Shown in pieces: positions 13,032-26,698 of a DNA stretch of 26,698 bases; positions within the stretch are counted from its first letter, which is position 1; every line of letters begins with the position of its first letter. Origin of the DNA: a virus; IMG/VR virus record IMGVR_UViG_3300025086_000192, positions 1 through 26,698 of that record, one strand, 5' to 3'. The notes beneath the pieces are model-generated. The model was not told the DNA's origin. It was given only the letters and a program-made list of their open reading frames with translations, and made no database searches. Both the position numbers and the translations under genes were made by a program.

Positions 13032-15482
13032 ATGGTTTTACAAGTTGGCACTACAAATTTTCAAAGTACAGCAGGTGAAAGTTCTAGAAATCCTGTAAAT
13101 ACTTTTGTTGAACCTGTAAGCGTTTTACCTAAAACTGGATTGATGGAGTTGGCTGATACTTTAAAATCTATAAACCCTACATTACAAAAACTTGTTAACT
13201 TTCAAATAGATAAAGCAAAACAAGAAGGTGTATTAGCTGGTCAAAATCAAGTCTTAGGTTCTACTCCTACAGAAATTAATAAAATAAAAAAACAATTAGA
13301 AGCAAAAGAAGGTAAAAGATTTGCTAGGAATTTTATTGGTGGAAACATTTACACGCAGTATGGAATAGAAAAACAAATAGCTTTGAATTTAGGTAACTCA
13401 TCAAAAGCAAAAACTAAAAAGTTTTTTGATGAGTATGTTGTTCAATTTGAAACTAAAGATGGTGTAATTCCTATGCCACTAAGTCAATTTGATGTTGGAT
13501 CTGAACAATTTGAAGTAGCTTTATCAGATTTTAATGCAACTCAATTAACAGATACAAAAGGTATTAGGCCAGAAATATTAAATGAACATTTTTTTCCAAG
13601 TCAAAACTTAGCTCTACAAGAAGTCTTTAAAGATCACGAAGAAAAAAGATCAGAACAAAAAATTGGTATATTTGAAAATAGTTTTAGTGATTCTATACTT
13701 ATAAATTTCCGAAGTATTAATGAAGATAATGACGATATAGATGATAAATTTGTCAAGTTAGATAATGTTCAAAATAATATTAATAATATGGTTACTTATG
13801 GTTTAACAGATAGCGTATCACCTAAAAAAATTGTTGATTATACACAAAATAACATCAATACAATTATTAGTGACTTTGAAGATGGTGAATTAGATTGGAT
13901 TGAAGCTGAAGCTGAAATATATGATCTTATTGATTTTGTAAAAGAATTAAGAGTAGGACCACAACAAACTAAATTAGGTGATTTCACAGATAAAGATGGC
14001 AGTTTTAATGTAATGTTAAAAGAAACCTTTAAAGTTATAAATGATAAAAAAGAAGAAGAAGTTAAATTTGCAAATCTATCAGAGCAATCAGATATAGATA
14101 CTAGGCTTTCACAATTAGATTACAATACTAAAAGTTTTGCCACTATTAGAAATAATGCAAACATAATAAGTGGTTTAACAAAAGATTTTCCAGATCAAAT
14201 TGAATTTATAAAAGAAAAATATGCAGATTTAAACTACAACGTAGATGCTTGGTGGTTAAACTTTCACAAAAGATATAATAATGGTGAATTTAAGGATAAA
14301 CAACAAGCAAAGACAACTTTATATGGCTTTATGGAAACTCTAGGTCCAGCAGCAACAAAAGAAGATGTAGATAATTTTAATAGATTATTTAATTATGTTG
14401 ATAGCAATACTAATAAAGGTTTGTTTGAATCAAGACCAGAATTAAAAAGACTTATAAAACAAGGAGATAGGGTTTTAAGTCAGAGAGGATTATTTACTTT
14501 AGAAGTTAAAGGACAATACGTTCAACAAAAATTTGATTTAGATGAACACTTTAGATTAGAATTAGACAAATGGAGCATAGGACAATATGCCAATGAAGCA
14601 GCAAAAGAAACTAAATACCAAGAAATAATTTCTAATTATAAGGAAGATCTAAAAAAAATTAAATCAGGCAAATCAGCAAGTGAAGGTGGATATGACTATT
14701 ACAATGCTGATAACTTTATATTTGATCCGACCAGTTATGAAGGAGAAAAAGAAGCTGGTGAAATTTTTAAAGGTCTTGGGATTGAAGGTGGTGCATTTTC
14801 AGAAGGTGGTTTTACAACAGTTGACGTAAGTTCTGGTGATACTTTATCTGGTATTGCAAATGATCTTGACACTTCTGTTGAAGCTATTAAAAAAGCAAAT
14901 GGAATGACAACTAATAAAATTCAAATAGGTGATGTTTTAGTAATTCCAGAAGGTATTACTGATTTAGACAAAGTAGATGCTCCTAAGTTTGACATGAATA
15001 AACTGATTACAAGTAAAGACCATCCATTTAATCCTGTTAGAGAAAAACATAATTTCCAAGTTATTTATAATATTGCTAAAGAAATAGGTATTAAATATCC
15101 CGAACTTGTAGCTGCACAAGCTATGGAAGAAACAGGTTTTGGTAAAACTCAATCAGCAAAAAATAATTTCTTAGGTCTTCAAGCTACATCTTCAGAAGTT
15201 AAAAGAGGTGAATCTGAAAGAAAATTAACTACTGAATTTAGAGGTCAAGGTGAACAACTAGAAGAAGCAGACTTTAAAACATTTAATAATATTAGAGCAA
15301 TGATGATGCAATACAAGAAACAATGGAATGATAACTTCTTGGGTAGAAAAGGTATAGTAAATGCAAACAGTATTAAAGAAGCAATTAAAATGCTACAAGC
15401 TGAAGATTATGCAACCAATCCAGATTATGATAAAAATGTATTAAGTATTATTGATCGTGGTATCAAAGAAGGGTGGTTTTAA
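13032..15482 (+). CDS. gp15-like internal virion protein with C-terminal LysM and glucosaminidase domains
   Basis: The 816-residue protein lies between gp14 and gp16 and is close to T7 gp15 (747 aa) in size and position. Residues 1 to about 590 are polar, helical and without recognised motifs. Residues about 597-640 form a LysM peptidoglycan-binding domain (SSGDTLSGIANDLDTSVEAI, KKANGM, IQIGDVLVIP). Residues about 674-816 resemble GH73/FlgJ-type N-acetylglucosaminidase: AQAMEETGFGKT (probable catalytic E700) corresponds to AQAALESGWGKS, then NNFLGL and the end block YATNPDYDKNVLSII. The inferred role is to cut peptidoglycan during DNA ejection. T7 gp15 has no such domain, and T7's lytic activity lies on the gp16 N-terminus. 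It starts two bases after gp14. Confidence 0.85.
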   Translation: MVLQVGTTNFQSTAGESSRNPVNTFVEPVSVLPKTGLMELADTLKSINPTLQKLVNFQIDKAKQEGVLAGQNQVLGSTPTEINKIKKQLEAKEGKRFARNFIGGNIYTQYGIEKQIALNLGNSSKAKTKKFFDEYVVQFETKDGVIPMPLSQFDVGSEQFEVALSDFNATQLTDTKGIRPEILNEHFFPSQNLALQEVFKDHEEKRSEQKIGIFENSFSDSILINFRSINEDNDDIDDKFVKLDNVQNNINNMVTYGLTDSVSPKKIVDYTQNNINTIISDFEDGELDWIEAEAEIYDLIDFVKELRVGPQQTKLGDFTDKDGSFNVMLKETFKVINDKKEEEVKFANLSEQSDIDTRLSQLDYNTKSFATIRNNANIISGLTKDFPDQIEFIKEKYADLNYNVDAWWLNFHKRYNNGEFKDKQQAKTTLYGFMETLGPAATKEDVDNFNRLFNYVDSNTNKGLFESRPELKRLIKQGDRVLSQRGLFTLEVKGQYVQQKFDLDEHFRLELDKWSIGQYANEAAKETKYQEIISNYKEDLKKIKSGKSASEGGYDYYNADNFIFDPTSYEGEKEAGEIFKGLGIEGGAFSEGGFTTVDVSSGDTLSGIANDLDTSVEAIKKANGMTTNKIQIGDVLVIPEGITDLDKVDAPKFDMNKLITSKDHPFNPVREKHNFQVIYNIAKEIGIKYPELVAAQAMEETGFGKTQSAKNNFLGLQATSSEVKRGESERKLTTEFRGQGEQLEEADFKTFNNIRAMMMQYKKQWNDNFLGRKGIVNANSIKEAIKMLQAEDYATNPDYDKNVLSIIDRGIKEGWF

Positions 15483-20512: not shown

Positions 20513-22219
20513 ATGGCTACTAATACCACAGCGACAGCAACAACACATACTGGTAATGGTAGTACTAATAACTTTGCAATATCTTTTACGTTCTTAGCTA
20601 ACAATGAAGTAGATGTAACAGTAGCAGGTGTCTTAAAAACATTAGATACTCATTACACAATTAGCGGATCAACAGTTACCTTTACTTCTGGTAACACCCC
20701 TGCTAATGGTGCTGCTGTTAAATTTCAAAGAGATACAAATATATCTGCAAAGAAAGTAGATTTTCAAGATGGTAGTGTTTTAACAGAAACAGATTTAGAT
20801 ACAAATAGTGACCAAGTATTATTTGCTCAACAAGAGATTACAGATAAATTATCAGGTATAGAAGAAGGAGCTACAGGAGATCAGACAAATGCAGAAATCA
20901 GAACAGCAGTAGAAGCTGCAACTGATAGTAATGTCTTTACAGACGCAGATCATTCTAAGTTAAATGCAATAGAAGCTTCTGCTACAGCAGACCAAACAGC
21001 AGCAGAGATAAGAACACTTGTAGAAAGTGCTAGTGATAGTAACGTGTTTACTGATGCTGACCACACTAAGTTGAATGGTATTGAAGCTAGTGCAACTGCT
21101 GACCAAACTAATGCTGAGATAAGAGCAGCAGTAGAAGCAGCTTCAGATTCTAATGTCTTTACTGATGCAGACCATACAAAACTAAATGCTATAGAAGCAG
21201 GTGCTACAACCGATCAGACTGCTAGTGAAATAAGAGGATTAGTTGAGTCGGCTTCTGACAGTAACGTATTTACAGATGCAGACCACAGTAAATTAAATGC
21301 AATAGAAGCTAATGCTGATGTAACTGATGCCACTAATGTAGATGCTGCTGGTGCAGTAATGAACAGCGATCTTGATACTAAAGGTGAGATCTTAGTTGGT
21401 GATGGCTCTGGCGATCCTTCAGCCCTTTCTGTTGGACAGAATAACTATGTATTAACTGCTGATAGTAATGAAGCTACAGGTGTTAAATGGGCTGCTGCTC
21501 AAGGTGGTGGTGGTGGTGGTGGAATAAGTAATGTTGTTGAAGATACTACTCCACAATTAGGTGGTAACTTAGATGTTCAAGCTAGTGAGATTAATACAAG
21601 TACAACTAATGGCAATATAAAATTAAATCCAAACGGTACTGGTGTTGTTGAAGTAAAAGGTGATGGCAGTAGTGCTGATGGAACAGTACAACTTAACTGT
21701 TCACAAAATAGTCATGGTGTAAAAATTAAATCACCAGCCCATAGTGCAGGTGCAAGCTATACATTAACTTTGCCTGTAAATGTTGTTAATGGTCAGTTCT
21801 TAAAAACAGATACAAATGGAGTTTTAAGTTGGGCTGCTGTTGATTTAACTGCTTTAAGTGCATCAAACTTAACTTCTGGAACTGTACCAGATGCCAGGTT
21901 CCCTGCAACTTTACCAGCTATTAGTGCAGCTAACCTAACTTCTATACCAGCAGGTAACTTAACTGGAACTGTTGCTGATGCGAGGATCTCTGCTCTTACA
22001 TCATCTAAACTGACAGGTGCTTTACCTGCTATTGATGGGTCAGCTTTAACAGGTGTTGCATCTACAACTGGTGGTGGTGCGATCTACGAGAATAGTGCTA
22101 CGATTAGTGCATCACGAACAATCCCTTCAGGGTCTAATGGTATGAGTGCAGGTCCTATTGCCGTAGCAAGCGGAATTACATTAACTGTCAGTTCTGGCAG
22201 CGTCTATACAGTAGTTTAA
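20513..22219 (+). CDS. Tail fibre protein (T7 gp17-like N-terminus)
   Basis: The 568-residue protein (T7 gp17 has 553) has an N-terminal tail-attachment domain (residues about 1-112: FAISFTFLANNEVDVTVAG, THYTISGSTVTFTSGNTPANGAAVKFQRDT) typical of gp17-type fibres. Four tandem 37-residue repeats follow (116-263), then a glycine run (331-337). Next is a shaft module with DTTPQLGGNLD and a 'KIKSPA...SYTLTLP...NGQFLKTD.NGVLSW' module. The C-terminus IPSGSNGMSAGPIAVASGITLTVSSGSVYTVV is a common ending in marine phage fibres. It is likely the anchor fibre bound to the tail ring; the downstream adhesins may attach to it. It starts two bases after gp16 without a Shine-Dalgarno motif. Confidence 0.9.
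   Translation: MATNTTATATTHTGNGSTNNFAISFTFLANNEVDVTVAGVLKTLDTHYTISGSTVTFTSGNTPANGAAVKFQRDTNISAKKVDFQDGSVLTETDLDTNSDQVLFAQQEITDKLSGIEEGATGDQTNAEIRTAVEAATDSNVFTDADHSKLNAIEASATADQTAAEIRTLVESASDSNVFTDADHTKLNGIEASATADQTNAEIRAAVEAASDSNVFTDADHTKLNAIEAGATTDQTASEIRGLVESASDSNVFTDADHSKLNAIEANADVTDATNVDAAGAVMNSDLDTKGEILVGDGSGDPSALSVGQNNYVLTADSNEATGVKWAAAQGGGGGGGISNVVEDTTPQLGGNLDVQASEINTSTTNGNIKLNPNGTGVVEVKGDGSSADGTVQLNCSQNSHGVKIKSPAHSAGASYTLTLPVNVVNGQFLKTDTNGVLSWAAVDLTALSASNLTSGTVPDARFPATLPAISAANLTSIPAGNLTGTVADARISALTSSKLTGALPAIDGSALTGVASTTGGGAIYENSATISASRTIPSGSNGMSAGPIAVASGITLTVSSGSVYTVV
20858..21301 (+). repeat. Four 111-bp tandem coding repeats in the tail fibre
   Basis: Units begin at 20858, 20969, 21080 and 21191, each 37 codons, with consensus IEA-AT-DQT-AEIR--VE followed by -ASDSNVFTDADH-KLN-. 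A fifth partial unit (IEANADVTDATN) follows at 21302. The amino acids are highly conserved, yet synonymous codons differ widely between units. The repeat probably builds a trimeric helical or beta stalk. Confidence 0.9.
21503..21520 (+). repeat. GGT trinucleotide run encoding a glycine hinge
   Basis: Six GGT codons in a row followed by GGA give seven glycines between the repeat stalk and the next fibre module. It is in frame, so length change would alter hinge length, not switch the gene off. Confidence 0.8.
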
Positions 22220-22221
22220 TT

Positions 22222-22851
22222 ATGGCAATTTCTATAAACGGATCTACAAATGTTATATCTGGTGTAGCCGTTGGTGGACTTCCTGATGGAATAGTAGATG
22301 CAGATATGCTTGCTGCTAATGCTGTTACTGCTGCAAAACTTGCAAGTGGTGCAGTTGGGAAATGGACTCATGTAAATTATACCTCTATAGGAACTGGTGG
22401 AAGTTATACATTCTCAGGAATACCAACTGATGCAATCGCTCTTCGTATAAATTTTATAAATCTATCAAGTAATACAGGTTCTAATGGAAGTGAAAGTTAT
22501 GCAGCATTAAGATTAGGTACTGCTTCTGGTCTTATTGATAGTTATAACTCTATTGTTAGTTATCTTGAAACTAGTTATCAAAGAGTTGATACATGGACAA
22601 GTAGGCATATGTTATACAATGAGAATTATGGAAGAGCAGAAAATGTTTTTAATGGTCAAATTCAATGTTGGAAAACTGCTGGTACGGATAGATGGAATAT
22701 AATGTCAGATGTAACTAGAGGTAATAATTCAACTTATTATTGGGGTCAGGGTTATTGTAATTTAGCTGCAAATATTACACAAGCTCAATTATTTTTAAAT
22801 ACTGGCTCATTTGATAATGGTTCAGCATCACTAAGTTATTATCAAGATTAA
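22222..22851 (+). CDS. Accessory tail adhesin 1
   Basis: The 209-residue protein begins MAISINGSTNVISGVAVGGLP, then GIVDADMLAANAVTAAKLASGAVGKW, a short attachment-type lead common to phage fibre proteins ('I-G---I-GV--GGLPDG-VD-D-LA--AVT--KLA'). From residue about 48 a separate domain begins (WTHVNYTSIGTGGSYTFSGIP and onward), rich in Tyr, Trp, Ser and Asn. It is predicted beta-sandwich and typical of receptor-binding tips. No enzyme motif is visible. It begins two bases after the fibre gene with no Shine-Dalgarno motif and is followed one base later by a tail chaperone-type gene, which suggests a partner pair. Confidence 0.7.
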   Translation: MAISINGSTNVISGVAVGGLPDGIVDADMLAANAVTAAKLASGAVGKWTHVNYTSIGTGGSYTFSGIPTDAIALRINFINLSSNTGSNGSESYAALRLGTASGLIDSYNSIVSYLETSYQRVDTWTSRHMLYNENYGRAENVFNGQIQCWKTAGTDRWNIMSDVTRGNNSTYYWGQGYCNLAANITQAQLFLNTGSFDNGSASLSYYQD

Positions 22852-22852
22852 T

Positions 22853-23107
22853 ATGAAAAATACTACACTTGACATACAAACAGGCAAAATAACAGAAACA
22901 ACAATTTCTGATACACCGCCTACAGATGCAGAAGCACTTGCAAATTTAAGGTCTAGAAGAAATTTATTATTAGCTGAAACTGACTATTTAGCACTTGCAG
23001 ATCATACACTTACAGACGCAATGAAAACTTATAGACAAGCTCTTAGAGACTTACCAGCTAATACTGCTGACCCTCACAACGTAACTTATCCAACAAAACC
23101 TAGTTAA
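22853..23107 (+). CDS. Tail assembly chaperone-like protein
   Basis: The 84-residue product has RSRRNLLLAETDYLALAD (residues 33-50), then MKTYRQALRDLP (57-68) and an end VTYPTKPS. This is the signature of the phage tail-fibre assembly chaperone family ('R--LL-etDw---D---...YRqaLRdlP...nv-wPtkP'). Members help fold or assemble fibre proteins. It follows adhesin 1 by one base, which points to that protein as client. Its last 14 coding bases, CAAAACCTAGTTAA, are identical to the end of the gene at 23691. Confidence 0.85.
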   Translation: MKNTTLDIQTGKITETTISDTPPTDAEALANLRSRRNLLLAETDYLALADHTLTDAMKTYRQALRDLPANTADPHNVTYPTKPS

Positions 23108-23109
23108 CC

Positions 23110-23694
23110 ATGACAGCAAAGATTAAACTAAACGCAGCATCAGGTGGTGGGTCTTTCAGCTTACAAGCACCCTCTTCTTCTGCTAATAACAGAGTTATGA
23201 CTCTTCCTGACGTTGCAGATGGTAACCTTTTAACGACATCAAATTCACAAGTTGTCTCAGTTAATAAAACAGATACTTTTTCTACTAACTCAACAAGTAA
23301 AGTAGACATTACGGGAATGAGTGTATCAATTACACCATCTTCAACTTCAAGTAAAATCATGGTTTTTGCTGAAATAAATCATGGTGGTTATGATTATAAT
23401 TTTTATCTTGATTTACTAAGAGATTCTACTCGTTTAAGAATACCTGCAAGTGGTAATAATCCAGCTACTATTCAAGCACCGGGAATAAGTGAAGCAAGTA
23501 GTTTTCTTTGGACTACGTGGACAAGAACTATAGCTCTTTTAGACAGTCCAGCAACTAACAGTTCTATAACATATAAATTGCAAGTTGCCTGTCAAAGTGG
23601 TGGATATTTTTATTTAAACAGACCAAGAAGAAGTGGTAACTCTGTTGATGGTGTTTGTGGTTCTACTATTACAGTTATGGAGGTAGCGGCATGA
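23110..23694 (+). CDS. Accessory tail adhesin 2
   Basis: The 194-residue protein begins TAKIKLNAASGGGSFSLQAP, then SSSANNRVMTLPD, a common N-terminal module of marine phage tail proteins that is also related in pattern to the KIKSPA...LTLP module of the main fibre. Residues about 55-192 form a beta-rich domain (DITGMSVSITPSSTSSKIMV, FAEINHGG...YLDLLRDSTRL...TITVMEV), probably a jelly-roll or lectin-like receptor-binding head. It starts two bases after the chaperone stop without a Shine-Dalgarno motif and ends within the start of the next gene (ATGA). Confidence 0.75.
   Translation: MTAKIKLNAASGGGSFSLQAPSSSANNRVMTLPDVADGNLLTTSNSQVVSVNKTDTFSTNSTSKVDITGMSVSITPSSTSSKIMVFAEINHGGYDYNFYLDLLRDSTRLRIPASGNNPATIQAPGISEASSFLWTTWTRTIALLDSPATNSSITYKLQVACQSGGYFYLNRPRRSGNSVDGVCGSTITVMEVAA
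23679..23683 (+). promoter_or_regulatory. Shine-Dalgarno site deciding the start at 23691
   Basis: GGAGG lies 7 bases before ATG 23691, inside the 3' end of adhesin 2. The alternative in-frame ATG at 23655 has no such motif and would give a 40-base overlap. Confidence 0.65.
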
Positions 23695-23999
23695 GTTTAG
23701 ACCATGAAGCAATACGCAAAGCATATCCTGATGCTGTATCTATTGATGATTCTACAGGAGCTTTCAAAGCAGACGGCTCACAGATAACACTTGTTCAATC
23801 TGATATTGACGCTGCAAGAGTTACGTTAAATGCTGAAGCTGCTGCGGTTAAGTACAAAACTGATAGACAACTTTTATATCCATCTTTAGGTGAATTTGCA
23901 GATGCAATGTACTGGAATAGTAAGGGTGATTCTAGTAAACTAACTGCATACTATACAGCTTGCGAAAAAGTCAAAACCGACAATCCAAAACCTAGTTAA
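23691..23999 (+). CDS. Small tail-fibre-associated protein, likely adhesin partner
   Basis: The 102-residue product begins SLDHEAIRKAYPDAVSIDDS, then TGAFKADGSQITL, with a middle helical part (DAARVTLNAEAAAVKYKTDRQ) and an end LLYPSLGEFADAMYWNSKGD, VKTDNPKPS. I recognise the pattern 'YPs--e--DA-YW---GD...VK...PKPS' from small proteins beside tail fibres in marine phages; a chaperone or tail-tip role is suspected. It overlaps adhesin 2 by four bases. It shares its final 14 bases with the chaperone gene ending at 23107. The function is not proven. Confidence 0.75.
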   Translation: MSLDHEAIRKAYPDAVSIDDSTGAFKADGSQITLVQSDIDAARVTLNAEAAAVKYKTDRQLLYPSLGEFADAMYWNSKGDSSKLTAYYTACEKVKTDNPKPS

Positions 24000-24001
24000 T
24001 T

Positions 24002-25108
24002 ATGTCAGAGATCAAGGTAAATTCGATAAAAGGGGTAGGAGCTAGTGTTGCTGCTATTACCGTAAATAATTCTGATGGAACGTGTACTGCCAATATTACT
24101 AATAAACCTAATCGTAATTTAATAATTAACGGAGCTATGCAAGTGGCTCAACGTGGTACAAGTTTTTCTGCTGTACAAAATACTTTTACTTTAGATAGAT
24201 TTAAGTTTAAAAGAGAAAGTACTGCTGCTAATTTTACTATGGCACAATCTACTACTTCTCCAGATGGTTTTGCAAAAAGTCTTAAAATGACTTGTACGGC
24301 TGCCGATACTTCAACTGCCCATAATGAATTTGTAATGGTGCGTTATCACGTTGAAGCACAGGATTTACAAAGTTTAGGTTATGGCACAGCAGCAGCAAAG
24401 CCATTAGTTCTCAGTTTTTATGTTAGGTCAAGTCTAACAGGTACTTATAATATCAATTGTGTACAAAACGACAATTCAAATAGAATATATAGTCGAACTT
24501 ATACTATAAACTCTGCTAACACTTGGGAGAAAAAGACTATCTCTATTCCAGCAGATACTTCAGGTTTTTTTAATGATGATAATGGTGCTGGATTACAGAT
24601 TAATTTTTCTTTAATTTTGGGTTCTACTTACAAAGGTGGTGCAGTTAGTACAGCTTGGGAAAGTTATGCAAATTCAGTATTTGGTTCACAACATGGAGTA
24701 AATTTTGGTAGTAGCACATCAAATGATTGGTATCTTACAGGAGTTCAATTAGAAGTAGGCAGCGTGGCAACAGATTTTGAGCATAGGTCATTCGGTCAGG
24801 AGCTTCAACTTTGCAAACGCTATTACGAGGTTTTTAATCCAGGTTTATACGTGTTAGGAAGATATAGTTCTGGTTCAACTGGAGCAGCATATAATTTTCA
24901 TAGTTTTGAAGTAGAAAAAAGAGCAGCACCTACAAGTTCATTTTCTGGTACTTTCACTAGTTCTGGTGGTTATGCTGGTGATCCTGTCTTTTTTCAGCCA
25001 GATACTCGTGGAGTTGCAATTTATTCAACAAATACAGTTGCGAGTGGTGGGATATTATACTTAGATGATAGCGGTAGTGCATTTTGTAAATTTGATGCGG
25101 AGCTTTAA
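24002..25108 (+). CDS. Accessory tail adhesin 3 (NLIINGAMQVAQRG family)
   Basis: The 368-residue protein begins SEIKVNSIKGVGASVAAITV, then has NRNLIINGAMQVAQRGTSF (residues 38-56), TFTLDRFKF, LSFYVRSSLTGTYNINCVQN and, near 248-280, GVQLEVGSVATDFEHRSFGQ with LQLCKRYYE. This set is typical of a widespread phage tail protein with a carbohydrate-binding-module-like beta-sandwich. The last 90 residues vary (Ser/Gly/Tyr-rich) and probably form the tip. It starts two bases after its neighbour, has no Shine-Dalgarno motif, and is followed after two bases by a 55-residue gene. No catalytic motif is seen, so binding rather than hydrolysis is inferred. Confidence 0.8.
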   Translation: MSEIKVNSIKGVGASVAAITVNNSDGTCTANITNKPNRNLIINGAMQVAQRGTSFSAVQNTFTLDRFKFKRESTAANFTMAQSTTSPDGFAKSLKMTCTAADTSTAHNEFVMVRYHVEAQDLQSLGYGTAAAKPLVLSFYVRSSLTGTYNINCVQNDNSNRIYSRTYTINSANTWEKKTISIPADTSGFFNDDNGAGLQINFSLILGSTYKGGAVSTAWESYANSVFGSQHGVNFGSSTSNDWYLTGVQLEVGSVATDFEHRSFGQELQLCKRYYEVFNPGLYVLGRYSSGSTGAAYNFHSFEVEKRAAPTSSFSGTFTSSGGYAGDPVFFQPDTRGVAIYSTNTVASGGILYLDDSGSAFCKFDAEL

Positions 25109-25110
25109 TT

Positions 25111-25278
25111 ATGTCTTACACTTATAAACAATTAAAAAATCAGTTAACTAACGAAATTGATACAAAAATGATTTTAAGAAAAGAAGATAATGCTTTTATC
25201 CCATTTAATGAAGCAAACACCGACTACCAAGAATACTTGGAGTGGGCTAAAACTAATACAGCAGAGGAGGCAGACTAA
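25111..25278 (+). CDS. Small tail-associated protein (FIPFNEANTDYQEYLEW motif)
   Basis: The 55-residue product starts MSYTYKQLKNQLTNEIDTKM and contains DNAFIPFNEANTDYQEYLEWAK, then ends AEEAD. The 'IPfd-aN-DYqeYl-W' motif is one I recognise from small proteins and protein ends next to phage tail fibres, where the role is unclear. GGAG lies 8 bases before its ATG. It is too short for many gene finders but is well supported by codon structure, the two-base gap upstream and the stop/start overlap (TAATG) with the next gene. It may serve adhesin 3 as a chaperone; that is inference. Confidence 0.75.
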   Translation: MSYTYKQLKNQLTNEIDTKMILRKEDNAFIPFNEANTDYQEYLEWAKTNTAEEAD

Positions 25279-26429
25279 TGGGACTAACCAAAACACAATC
25301 AGGTGGACTTGAAGATCAATCTGTAACTTTAGATAAATTACCTCATGGTGATGGATCTAGTGATGGTAAGTTCTTGCGAGCAAACAACGGAGCAGATCCT
25401 AGCTTTGAAACAGTAAGTACAGACTTAGTTGCAGATACAAGTCCACAGCTAGGCGGTAACTTAGATGCTGGAAGTCACAGTATTATTTTTGATGATAATA
25501 GTAAACTAAAACTTGGAAACAATAATGACCTACAAATTTATCACGATGGAACGAACAGCCACCTTCTAAATACTACAAACGCTTTAATTATTAGATCAGA
25601 TGCTCTTAGGTTGAATGATGGTGGCAATACTGAGACAATGATAAAAGCAGATGCTAACGGAGCAGTAGAGCTATATCACGACAACAGTAAAAAGTTTGAG
25701 ACACACGCTAATGGTGCTCAAGTTCAAAATGCTGGTGCAGACACTACATTCTTTGTTACAGGTGCAGAGGGTCGTAGTTCTGAGATCCAATTCTTAGCTG
25801 ATGAAGGTGATGATTATGCTGATTACAGTCGTATACATAAAGATCAATCTACTGGAAAACTACATTTCCAAAACTATGCAGGTGGTGGTTGGGAAAATAA
25901 TTTAGTTCTTGTTAATGATGGAGCAGTAGAGCTATATCACGACGACGTAAAACAGGTAGAAACTACCGAGAATGGAATCCTTTTACCTAAAGGTTGTATT
26001 CGTGGCCTAGGTGGTAATAAAGTTATTATTGGTGGTACTATAGACCCTAGTCAAGATAGGACTTGGAATTTTTCTTTTAATGGTAATGCTAATGGAACTA
26101 ATAATGGGGTTGTGTTTAACGTAAAATTTTATATGAACCATTGGAATACTGGTGGTTATTATAAATACATTGAAAATATTATTGTTACCAGAGGAAACAC
26201 AACAGCATTTGAAAGAATCAATCTAATAAATAATGTAGGTACAGGTAGTACTGGTTGGACAAATGGACATATAGATAATCAAATTGTCCTTAGTGGTGGA
26301 ACTATAGATGGTTCTAGTTCACATTTGTTTAAAGTTAAATATGATGCTGACGGAGCACCTAGTTATACTTCTGGTTATTATTTAGAAGTTAACTACAGTA
26401 ATCAAATAGGAACAATAACTATTACTTAA
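25278..26429 (+). CDS. Accessory tail adhesin 4 with YHD repeat modules
   Basis: The 383-residue protein begins GLTKTQSGGLEDQSVTLDKL, then DTSPQLGGNLDAGSHSIIF (53-71). Three related modules follow with LQIYHDGTNS (Y88), AVELYHDNSKKFET (Y133) and AVELYHDDVKQVET (Y220), a pattern common in marine phage fibres. The C-terminal domain from about 240 (GNKVIIGGTID... YMNHWNTGGYYKYIENIIV) is beta-rich and is the likely receptor tip. The DTSPQLGGNLD block is shared with the main fibre at 21542, showing module exchange. GGAGG at 25266-25270 lies 7 bases before its ATG, which overlaps the previous stop. Confidence 0.8.
   Translation: MGLTKTQSGGLEDQSVTLDKLPHGDGSSDGKFLRANNGADPSFETVSTDLVADTSPQLGGNLDAGSHSIIFDDNSKLKLGNNNDLQIYHDGTNSHLLNTTNALIIRSDALRLNDGGNTETMIKADANGAVELYHDNSKKFETHANGAQVQNAGADTTFFVTGAEGRSSEIQFLADEGDDYADYSRIHKDQSTGKLHFQNYAGGGWENNLVLVNDGAVELYHDDVKQVETTENGILLPKGCIRGLGGNKVIIGGTIDPSQDRTWNFSFNGNANGTNNGVVFNVKFYMNHWNTGGYYKYIENIIVTRGNTTAFERINLINNVGTGSTGWTNGHIDNQIVLSGGTIDGSSSHLFKVKYDADGAPSYTSGYYLEVNYSNQIGTITIT
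25659..25943 (+). repeat. Exact 24-bp direct repeat within adhesin 4
   Basis: The same 24 bases, encoding GAVELYHD, occur at 25659-25682 and 25920-25943, 261 bases apart and in frame. Identity at synonymous positions points to a recent copy or gene conversion, in contrast to the diverged fibre repeats. Confidence 0.85.
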
Positions 26430-26431
26430 TT

Positions 26432-26623
26432 ATGAATTATTATTTTGAAAAAGATTCAAGAAAATTTAGTTTTTCTTGTGATGTTGAAGTAGGATATGAT
26501 CCAACAAAACACGTTAAAGTTTGGGTAGAAGATCCTTCTACAATAGATATGTTATTTAGTTGGACTTTAGATTCTGACGATAAAACCTTAATTAAAGGAG
26601 CAGAGTGTCACGCACCTGACTGA
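26432..26623 (+). CDS. Small protein after adhesin 4, unknown
   Basis: The 63-residue product is acidic and Phe/Trp-rich (MNYYFEKDSRKFSFSCDVEV, then YDPTKHVKVWVEDPSTIDML and FSWTLDSDDKTLIKGAECHAPD). I do not recognise the family. Its position, two bases after adhesin 4 and with no Shine-Dalgarno motif, repeats the adhesin/small-partner arrangement seen upstream. It has two Cys and no membrane segment. A chaperone or tail-tip role is possible only by analogy. Confidence 0.65.
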   Translation: MNYYFEKDSRKFSFSCDVEVGYDPTKHVKVWVEDPSTIDMLFSWTLDSDDKTLIKGAECHAPD

Positions 26624-26625
26624 TT

Positions 26626-26698
26626 ATGCCAAAGCCACTAGATCTCCTCATAAAAAAATACGAAGAACAACTTCTTCTAATTCAAAAACAAAAGAAAG
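26626..26698 (+). CDS. Start of a small charged, helical protein (3' truncated by window)
   Basis: An open frame begins ATG 26626, two bases after the previous stop (TGA-TT-ATG), and runs off the window after 24 residues: MPKPLDLLIKKYEEQLLLIQ, then KQKK. The Leu/Ile spacing suggests an amphipathic helix or coiled coil. The gene junction matches the others in the window, which supports it. Function unknown; lysis or packaging genes are expected downstream in T7 order, but this fragment is too short to assign. Confidence 0.55.
   Translation, partial: MPKPLDLLIKKYEEQLLLIQKQKK

Follow-up and report, generated by a model that had tools for sequence, protein, structure and literature searches.

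Tip and chaperone pairs in described phages and proposed tip cassettes in the window

In phages Pam3 (gp24/gp25) and Mu (S/U, Tfa), a fiber tip gene is followed by the gene for a small chaperone whose N-terminal domain is variable and whose C-terminal half is conserved. The variable domain of Pam3 gp25 binds the TNF-like fiber tip, and the protein trimerizes via its conserved C-terminal domain (PMC9608196). We analyzed a similar arrangement in IMGVR_UViG_3300025086_000192, a 26.7-kb IMG/VR fragment from a marine T7-like podovirus (positions 1 to 26,698 of the record, here called the window). Behind its main tail fiber gene lie four adhesin genes (a1 to a4), each followed by a small gene (s1 to s4). 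We propose, with a probability of roughly 0.6, that this is an array of tip cassettes, in which each adhesin would join a slot-specific N terminus to an exchangeable receptor-binding tip, and in which the tip and a matching small assembly chaperone would be inherited together. The tip of the second adhesin (a2C) is TNF-like by fold, as in Pam3. However, Pam3 and Mu have one pair where the window has four in tandem, and they differ from it further in that s3 is without the C-terminal half, s2 is not a PF16778 protein, and the adhesins have slot-specific N termini.

Two other systems share parts of this design. In Alteromonas phages A5 and V22, a fiber and its cognate chaperone are swapped as a module between unrelated phages, as here, but there is a single fiber and no ordered array (PMC10579305). 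The TSP1-4 proteins, which form the branched tailspike complex of the Ackermannviridae, are receptor-binding proteins from a gene cluster with conserved N-terminal positioning and exchangeable C termini, again as here, but they are large enzymatic spikes with XD/gp10-like and TD adaptor domains, and no chaperones are mentioned (PMC11414711). In the window, by comparison, N termini of ~36 to 48 amino acids sit on short adhesins with partners. A Pfam scan, made without XD/TD profiles or a comparison of structures, reported no adaptor domain. In marine phages, fiber and C1q-like genes are hypervariable, and few regions vary as much as the tail fiber ends, which lie in metaviromic islands (PMC3909814). 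Only the fiber N termini are resolved in the P-SCSP1u structure (PMC10575957). Ordered arrays of tips with chaperones were not described in the literature searched, which left out most subscription papers. The genes of the array and its borders are as follows.

20513..22219, + strand: main tail fiber, 568 amino acids; T7-type N-terminal domain (PF03906, E = 2.3e-17); phrog_21412 tail fiber (E = 2.6e-95)
22058..22219, + strand: fibC, the ~53-amino-acid C-terminal module of the main fiber; proposed docking end, associated with a1N adhesins
22222..22851, + strand: adhesin a1, 209 amino acids; slot-1 N-terminal domain a1N (residues ~1 to 48) and tip a1C
22853..23107, + strand: s1, 84 amino acids, tail fiber assembly chaperone; PF16778 C-terminal half; s1N found behind a1C
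23110..23694, + strand: adhesin a2, 194 amino acids; slot-2 N-terminal domain a2N (residues ~1 to 46) and TNF/C1q-like tip a2C
23691..23999, + strand: s2, 102 amino acids, ATG start, partner of a2-type tips; phrog_9114; s2N found behind a2C and covarying with it
24002..25108, + strand: adhesin a3, 368 amino acids; slot-3 N-terminal domain a3N (residues ~1 to 36), carbohydrate-binding-module (CBM)-like beta-sandwich core, variable C-terminal tail
25111..25278, + strand: s3, 55 amino acids; N-terminal chaperone half, no PF16778 half; full-length s3+PF16778 relatives exist
25278..26429, + strand: adhesin or short fiber a4, 383 amino acids; slot-4 N-terminal domain, repeat-bearing shaft a4M, tip a4C (residues ~245 to 383)
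26432..26623, + strand: s4, 63 amino acids, partner of the a4C tip; relatives in P-SCSP1 phages
26626..26698, + strand: beginning of a conserved gene that runs off the contig (profile match, E = 8.9e-11), which closes such arrays in relatives

An earlier interpretation made from the letters alone (the sequence-only reading) had described four adhesin/small-gene pairs after the tail fiber, and all eight open reading frames are indeed present at the positions given (22222 to 26623). From a1 to s4 they are packed with 1- to 2-nucleotide gaps or overlaps, including ATGA at 23691 to 23694 and TAATG at the s3/a4 joint. The small genes are not chance reading frames, since relatives of s1, s2, and s3 number in the hundreds and s4 is found in 17 near-identical isolates. 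The adhesins had been called large and beta-rich. Size holds for a3 and a4 but not for a1 and a2, which have only about 200 amino acids, and structure models of a2 and a3 show mostly beta structure.

The a2 model (mean predicted local distance difference test score, 81) gave Foldseek matches to TNF-like lectins, and the a2C profile matched the C terminus of orf22, an 18-copy protein in PDB 9efk (E = 7.6e-37). Adhesin a3 matched phrog_4492 tail fiber (E = 2.6e-56), and its core model matched CBM4, CBM11, and CBM16 in Foldseek. By fold, the TNF/C1q-like a2C and the CBM-like a3 core suggest sugar receptors for these two modeled tips. Adhesin a4 matched tail fiber families (phrog_13518 and phrog_8745); its shaft has two copies of a GAVELYHD... 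segment, and relatives of a4M are found in many of the fetched marine fiber proteins.

Partner type follows the adhesin tip

We fetched ~490 loci, drawn from relatives of gp11, s1, s2, s3, a1, and a3, from named phages, and from the stretches behind the main fiber of 20 relatives and 7 more contigs. Genes were called by script, with strand weighting for the main tables. Profiles were built from the domains of the window proteins, and all pairs of an adhesin with its next gene were tabulated after removal of exact duplicates. Loci were chosen by similarity to one member of a pair, and the neighbor was not a selection criterion. Because loci from the same contig or lineage are nonindependent, the pair counts measure consistency and not numbers of events.

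In the nonredundant set, every s3-type small gene (197/197) lay behind an a3 tip. The s2N type was behind an a2 tip in 158 of 167 cases, the remaining nine being unclassified, and s1N was behind a1C in 5/5. Read in the reverse direction, s3 follows 215 of 229 a3-tip genes. The type of the small gene was associated with the adhesin C-terminal domain at a Cramér V of 0.87 versus 0.61 for the adhesin N terminus. Within slot a2N alone, adhesins with an a2C tip were followed by 78 s2N and zero s3, while those with an a3M tip were followed by s3 in 16 of 17 cases and never by s2N. Individual loci show the same: a2N+a3M is followed by s3 (L474), a1N+a2C by s2 (L475), and one locus (L250) carries a1N+a1C with s1, a2N+a3M with s3, and a3N+a3M with s3.

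The linkage extends to other shafts. The main fiber of P-SCSP2 ends in an a3 core (a3M tip, 42% identity) and is followed by an s3 relative, and in Prochlorococcus phage MED4-184 s2 comes after a 581-amino-acid protein that has a2C at its end. P-SCSP1h has the a4 tip as a gene of its own (150 amino acids, 43% identical to a4C) directly behind the main fiber, with a 68-amino-acid s4 gene directly behind it (61% identical to s4 of the window); all 17 P-SCSP1 isolates have both. No relatives of s4 or of the a4 tip were found in IMG/VR. Apart from these pairs, a ~95-amino-acid phrog_6228 gene unlike s4 stands behind an a4N-type fiber in P-SCSP phages (L002:10502-10795 and L003:11868-12152) and is perhaps a further partner type. 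The sequence-only reading had asked whether pairs move together between phages. They do: the small-gene type goes with the C-terminal tip in whichever slot or shaft, and the independent inheritance that would have spoken against the pairing was not seen. These data also agree with the idea of interchangeable tips, and they support the earlier reading in part.

The pairs also covary in sequence. Across 155 a2C/s2N pairs, tip distances correlated with s2N distances (rho = 0.245; shuffle standard deviation, 0.051), and no correlation was seen between a2C and the C-terminal half of s2, s2C (rho = −0.02). In 21 loci with two a2C/s2N pairs, exchanging the partners within the locus lowered the correlation from 0.319 to 0.125, and 0 of 1,000 shuffles reached the observed value. 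For 98 a3/s3 pairs, the s3 N terminus covaried with the variable adhesin tail (rho = 0.184) and not with the core (rho = 0.007). Covariation of the N-terminal part of the partner with the tip fits what is expected of modular tail fiber assembly chaperones such as Pam3 gp25 and Mu Tfa. A Pam3-type division of labor would explain the difference between the partner halves.

Could the pairs be adjacent genes kept by linkage, the small genes having some other role? Neighboring genes do tend to cotransfer, and the covariation is modest. However, s2C is nearly as close to the tip and does not covary, adhesins of the same slot have different partner types according to their tips, and s1 and the chimeric relatives of the partners are chaperones by PF16778. 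We regard simple linkage as very improbable.

Membership of s1 in the tail assembly chaperones, as first recognized in the sequence-only reading, was borne out by PF16778 (E = 2.7e-15, Pfam scan) and by matches to tail fiber assembly PHROGs. s2 belongs to phrog_9114 (function unknown), with PF16778 found only in its chimeric relatives. s3 matches PHROGs of unknown function, and its longer relatives end in PF16778. s4 had no significant match in scans of the Pfam and PHROGs libraries. All four lie where a tail fiber chaperone would, directly behind a fiber or adhesin tip gene. Natural chimeras, s2N+PF16778 and s3+PF16778, sit behind a2 and a3 tips and show that the partner halves can be exchanged, and s3 can be read as the fiber-facing half of a chaperone without PF16778. 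No natural fusion of an adhesin and its partner in one open reading frame was found among the fetched loci. Profile comparison at first gave >99% probability for homology of s2 and s3 to s1, which came from chimeric members shared between the alignments; clean alignments were negative, and we therefore do not claim common ancestry of s1, s2, and s3.

The small proteins could instead be permanent tips or caps, retained on the adhesin in the virion as Mu Tfa is on its fiber, and could join in receptor binding. Some Tfa proteins do remain in the virion (Mu and Ur-lambda; PMC9608196), s3 consists of the fiber-binding half only, and covariation of partner N termini with tips would suit this role as well. 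Against it, PF16778, the family of s1, is a named assembly chaperone, and the Pam3 chaperone is not found in virions (PMC9608196). We consider lasting caps unlikely. In the cassette array, the variable N-terminal part of the small protein would instead grip the distal adhesin tip and lead to its trimerization, and the C-terminal half, which is exchangeable (PF16778 or s2C) and which s3 does not have, would aid this step.

Slot order and the fibC-ended main fiber

Neither the fixed order of slot-specific N termini nor the link to fibC was part of the sequence-only reading. An a1N adhesin was followed by a2N as the next adhesin in 110 of 113 cases, and a2N by a3N in 135 of 155; a1N itself is common to many adhesins bearing other tips. 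A fiber ending in fibC was followed by a1N in 50 of 59 cases, other fibC-ended genes in 81 of 113, and fibers without fibC in 2 of 39. Among complete main fibers with two following genes, an a1N adhesin came next in 19 of 25 with fibC versus 0 of 17 without (P = 5e-7). The median length of the main fiber was 606 amino acids with fibC versus 983 without. fibC is also found on other genes upstream of a1N; in L484 and L485, two successive a1N-a2N-a3N rounds are present, the second opened by a 109-amino-acid gene ending in fibC. What appears to be new here at the level of sequence is a set of slot-specific adhesin N termini, nearly always in the order a1N, a2N, a3N, in an array tied to fibC on a shorter main fiber. 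From this we infer that fibC replaces the fiber's own tip and carries the slots.

Two observations concern the fiber and fibC themselves. The fiber shaft (20513 to 22219) has about four ~38-amino-acid protein repeats (SDSNVFTDADHTKLNAIEASATADQT...), already diverged in DNA. A ~230-amino-acid gene ending in fibC is often next after s3+PF16778 genes (L249, L263, L264, L273, and others).

In the arrangement that we favor, the main fiber, which is without a long distal part of its own and ends in fibC, would act as the shaft, and adhesins 1 to 3 would dock on it in fixed positions via a1N, a2N, and a3N. a4 would be a second short fiber with its own tip and partner, and together the tips may recognize several receptors. 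Position-specific N-terminal domains with exchangeable C termini are what a branched receptor-binding complex has, and receptor binding by the tips in a physical complex anchored on the tail would complete the likeness. The adhesins might alternatively be joined to the nozzle or adaptor of the tail itself or chain together, and the fixed a1N-a2N-a3N order would also suit a chain. However, the array goes with fibC on the main fiber, and a separate fibC-ended gene precedes the second round in L484 and L485, which makes attachment elsewhere somewhat unlikely. Another alternative is that the tips compete for one dock, giving mixed virions with one alternative per fiber, like the alternative fibers of Mu. 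The occurrence of tips on different N termini would agree with this, but slot-specific N termini that are differently built and keep a fixed order point to separate docks in simultaneous use, and we find a single shared dock quite unlikely.

A more specific form of the cassette array seems possible to us, at a little under even odds. Here a shortened fibC-ended fiber would carry three adhesins at once, like a plug board, in slots defined by the N-terminal plugs a1N, a2N, and a3N, each tip having its own chaperone. A short fibC-ended protein could start a second round, and the design would be widespread in marine podoviruses, including P-SSP7.

Exceptions and meaning for marine podoviruses

Several points weigh against the cassette array. 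About a fifth of the a2-tip adhesins (42/227) have another adhesin directly behind them, and for these the earlier notion of a dedicated partner was too strict, even though small-gene type does track the tip. In a tabulation of 42 such cases, 18 sit just before an a2-tip adhesin with s2, which may share its partner. P-SSP7 (PSSP7_036-041) resembles the window in its fibC-ended fiber followed by a1N, a2N, one more a2C adhesin with s2, and then a3N, but it has this single small partner, and all of its tips are of the a2C type; its genes besides the fiber (gp17) are annotated as uncharacterized. The partner can therefore be absent or shared. In a separate test, nearest neighbors of the a2C tip predicted whether a partner was present only slightly better than shuffles did, and failed at distances above 50%. 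Tight linkage of neighboring sequence could cause part of the modest covariation, though the second half of s2 argues otherwise, as noted. In profile comparisons free of chimeras, no homology among s1, s2, and s3 was detected. Pair 1 has few relatives behind it, and pair 4 draws on the P-SCSP1 phage group only. Finally, the loci overlap and share kinship, and their counts are not independent events.

Elsewhere in the window, genes for primase/helicase, exonuclease, portal, scaffold, capsid, tail, and internal proteins are present in T7 order. The fragment is close to Prochlorococcus phage P-SCSP2, whose nozzle protein (gp12) shares 81.5% identity with its own; the next listed named phages are near 40%. 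Between internal virion proteins lies a gene for an 816-amino-acid protein (13032 to 15482); its residues ~670 to 813 match endolysin PHROGs, and this C-terminal end is possibly a cell wall-cutting domain.

That partners track their tips from slot to slot in hundreds of related viruses suggests a plug-in system, by which host recognition tips could be swapped or multiplied. With tip and chaperone inherited as one unit, a phage could change or add receptor specificity by swapping a cassette while leaving the docks undisturbed. If true, this cassette rule, a tip with its matching chaperone in a numbered slot, would explain how tips are swapped without breaking the tail. Much unannotated sequence in phages of Prochlorococcus, Synechococcus, and Pelagibacter would then become readable, and the rule is directly testable in the P-SSP7 and P-SCSP1/2 isolates.

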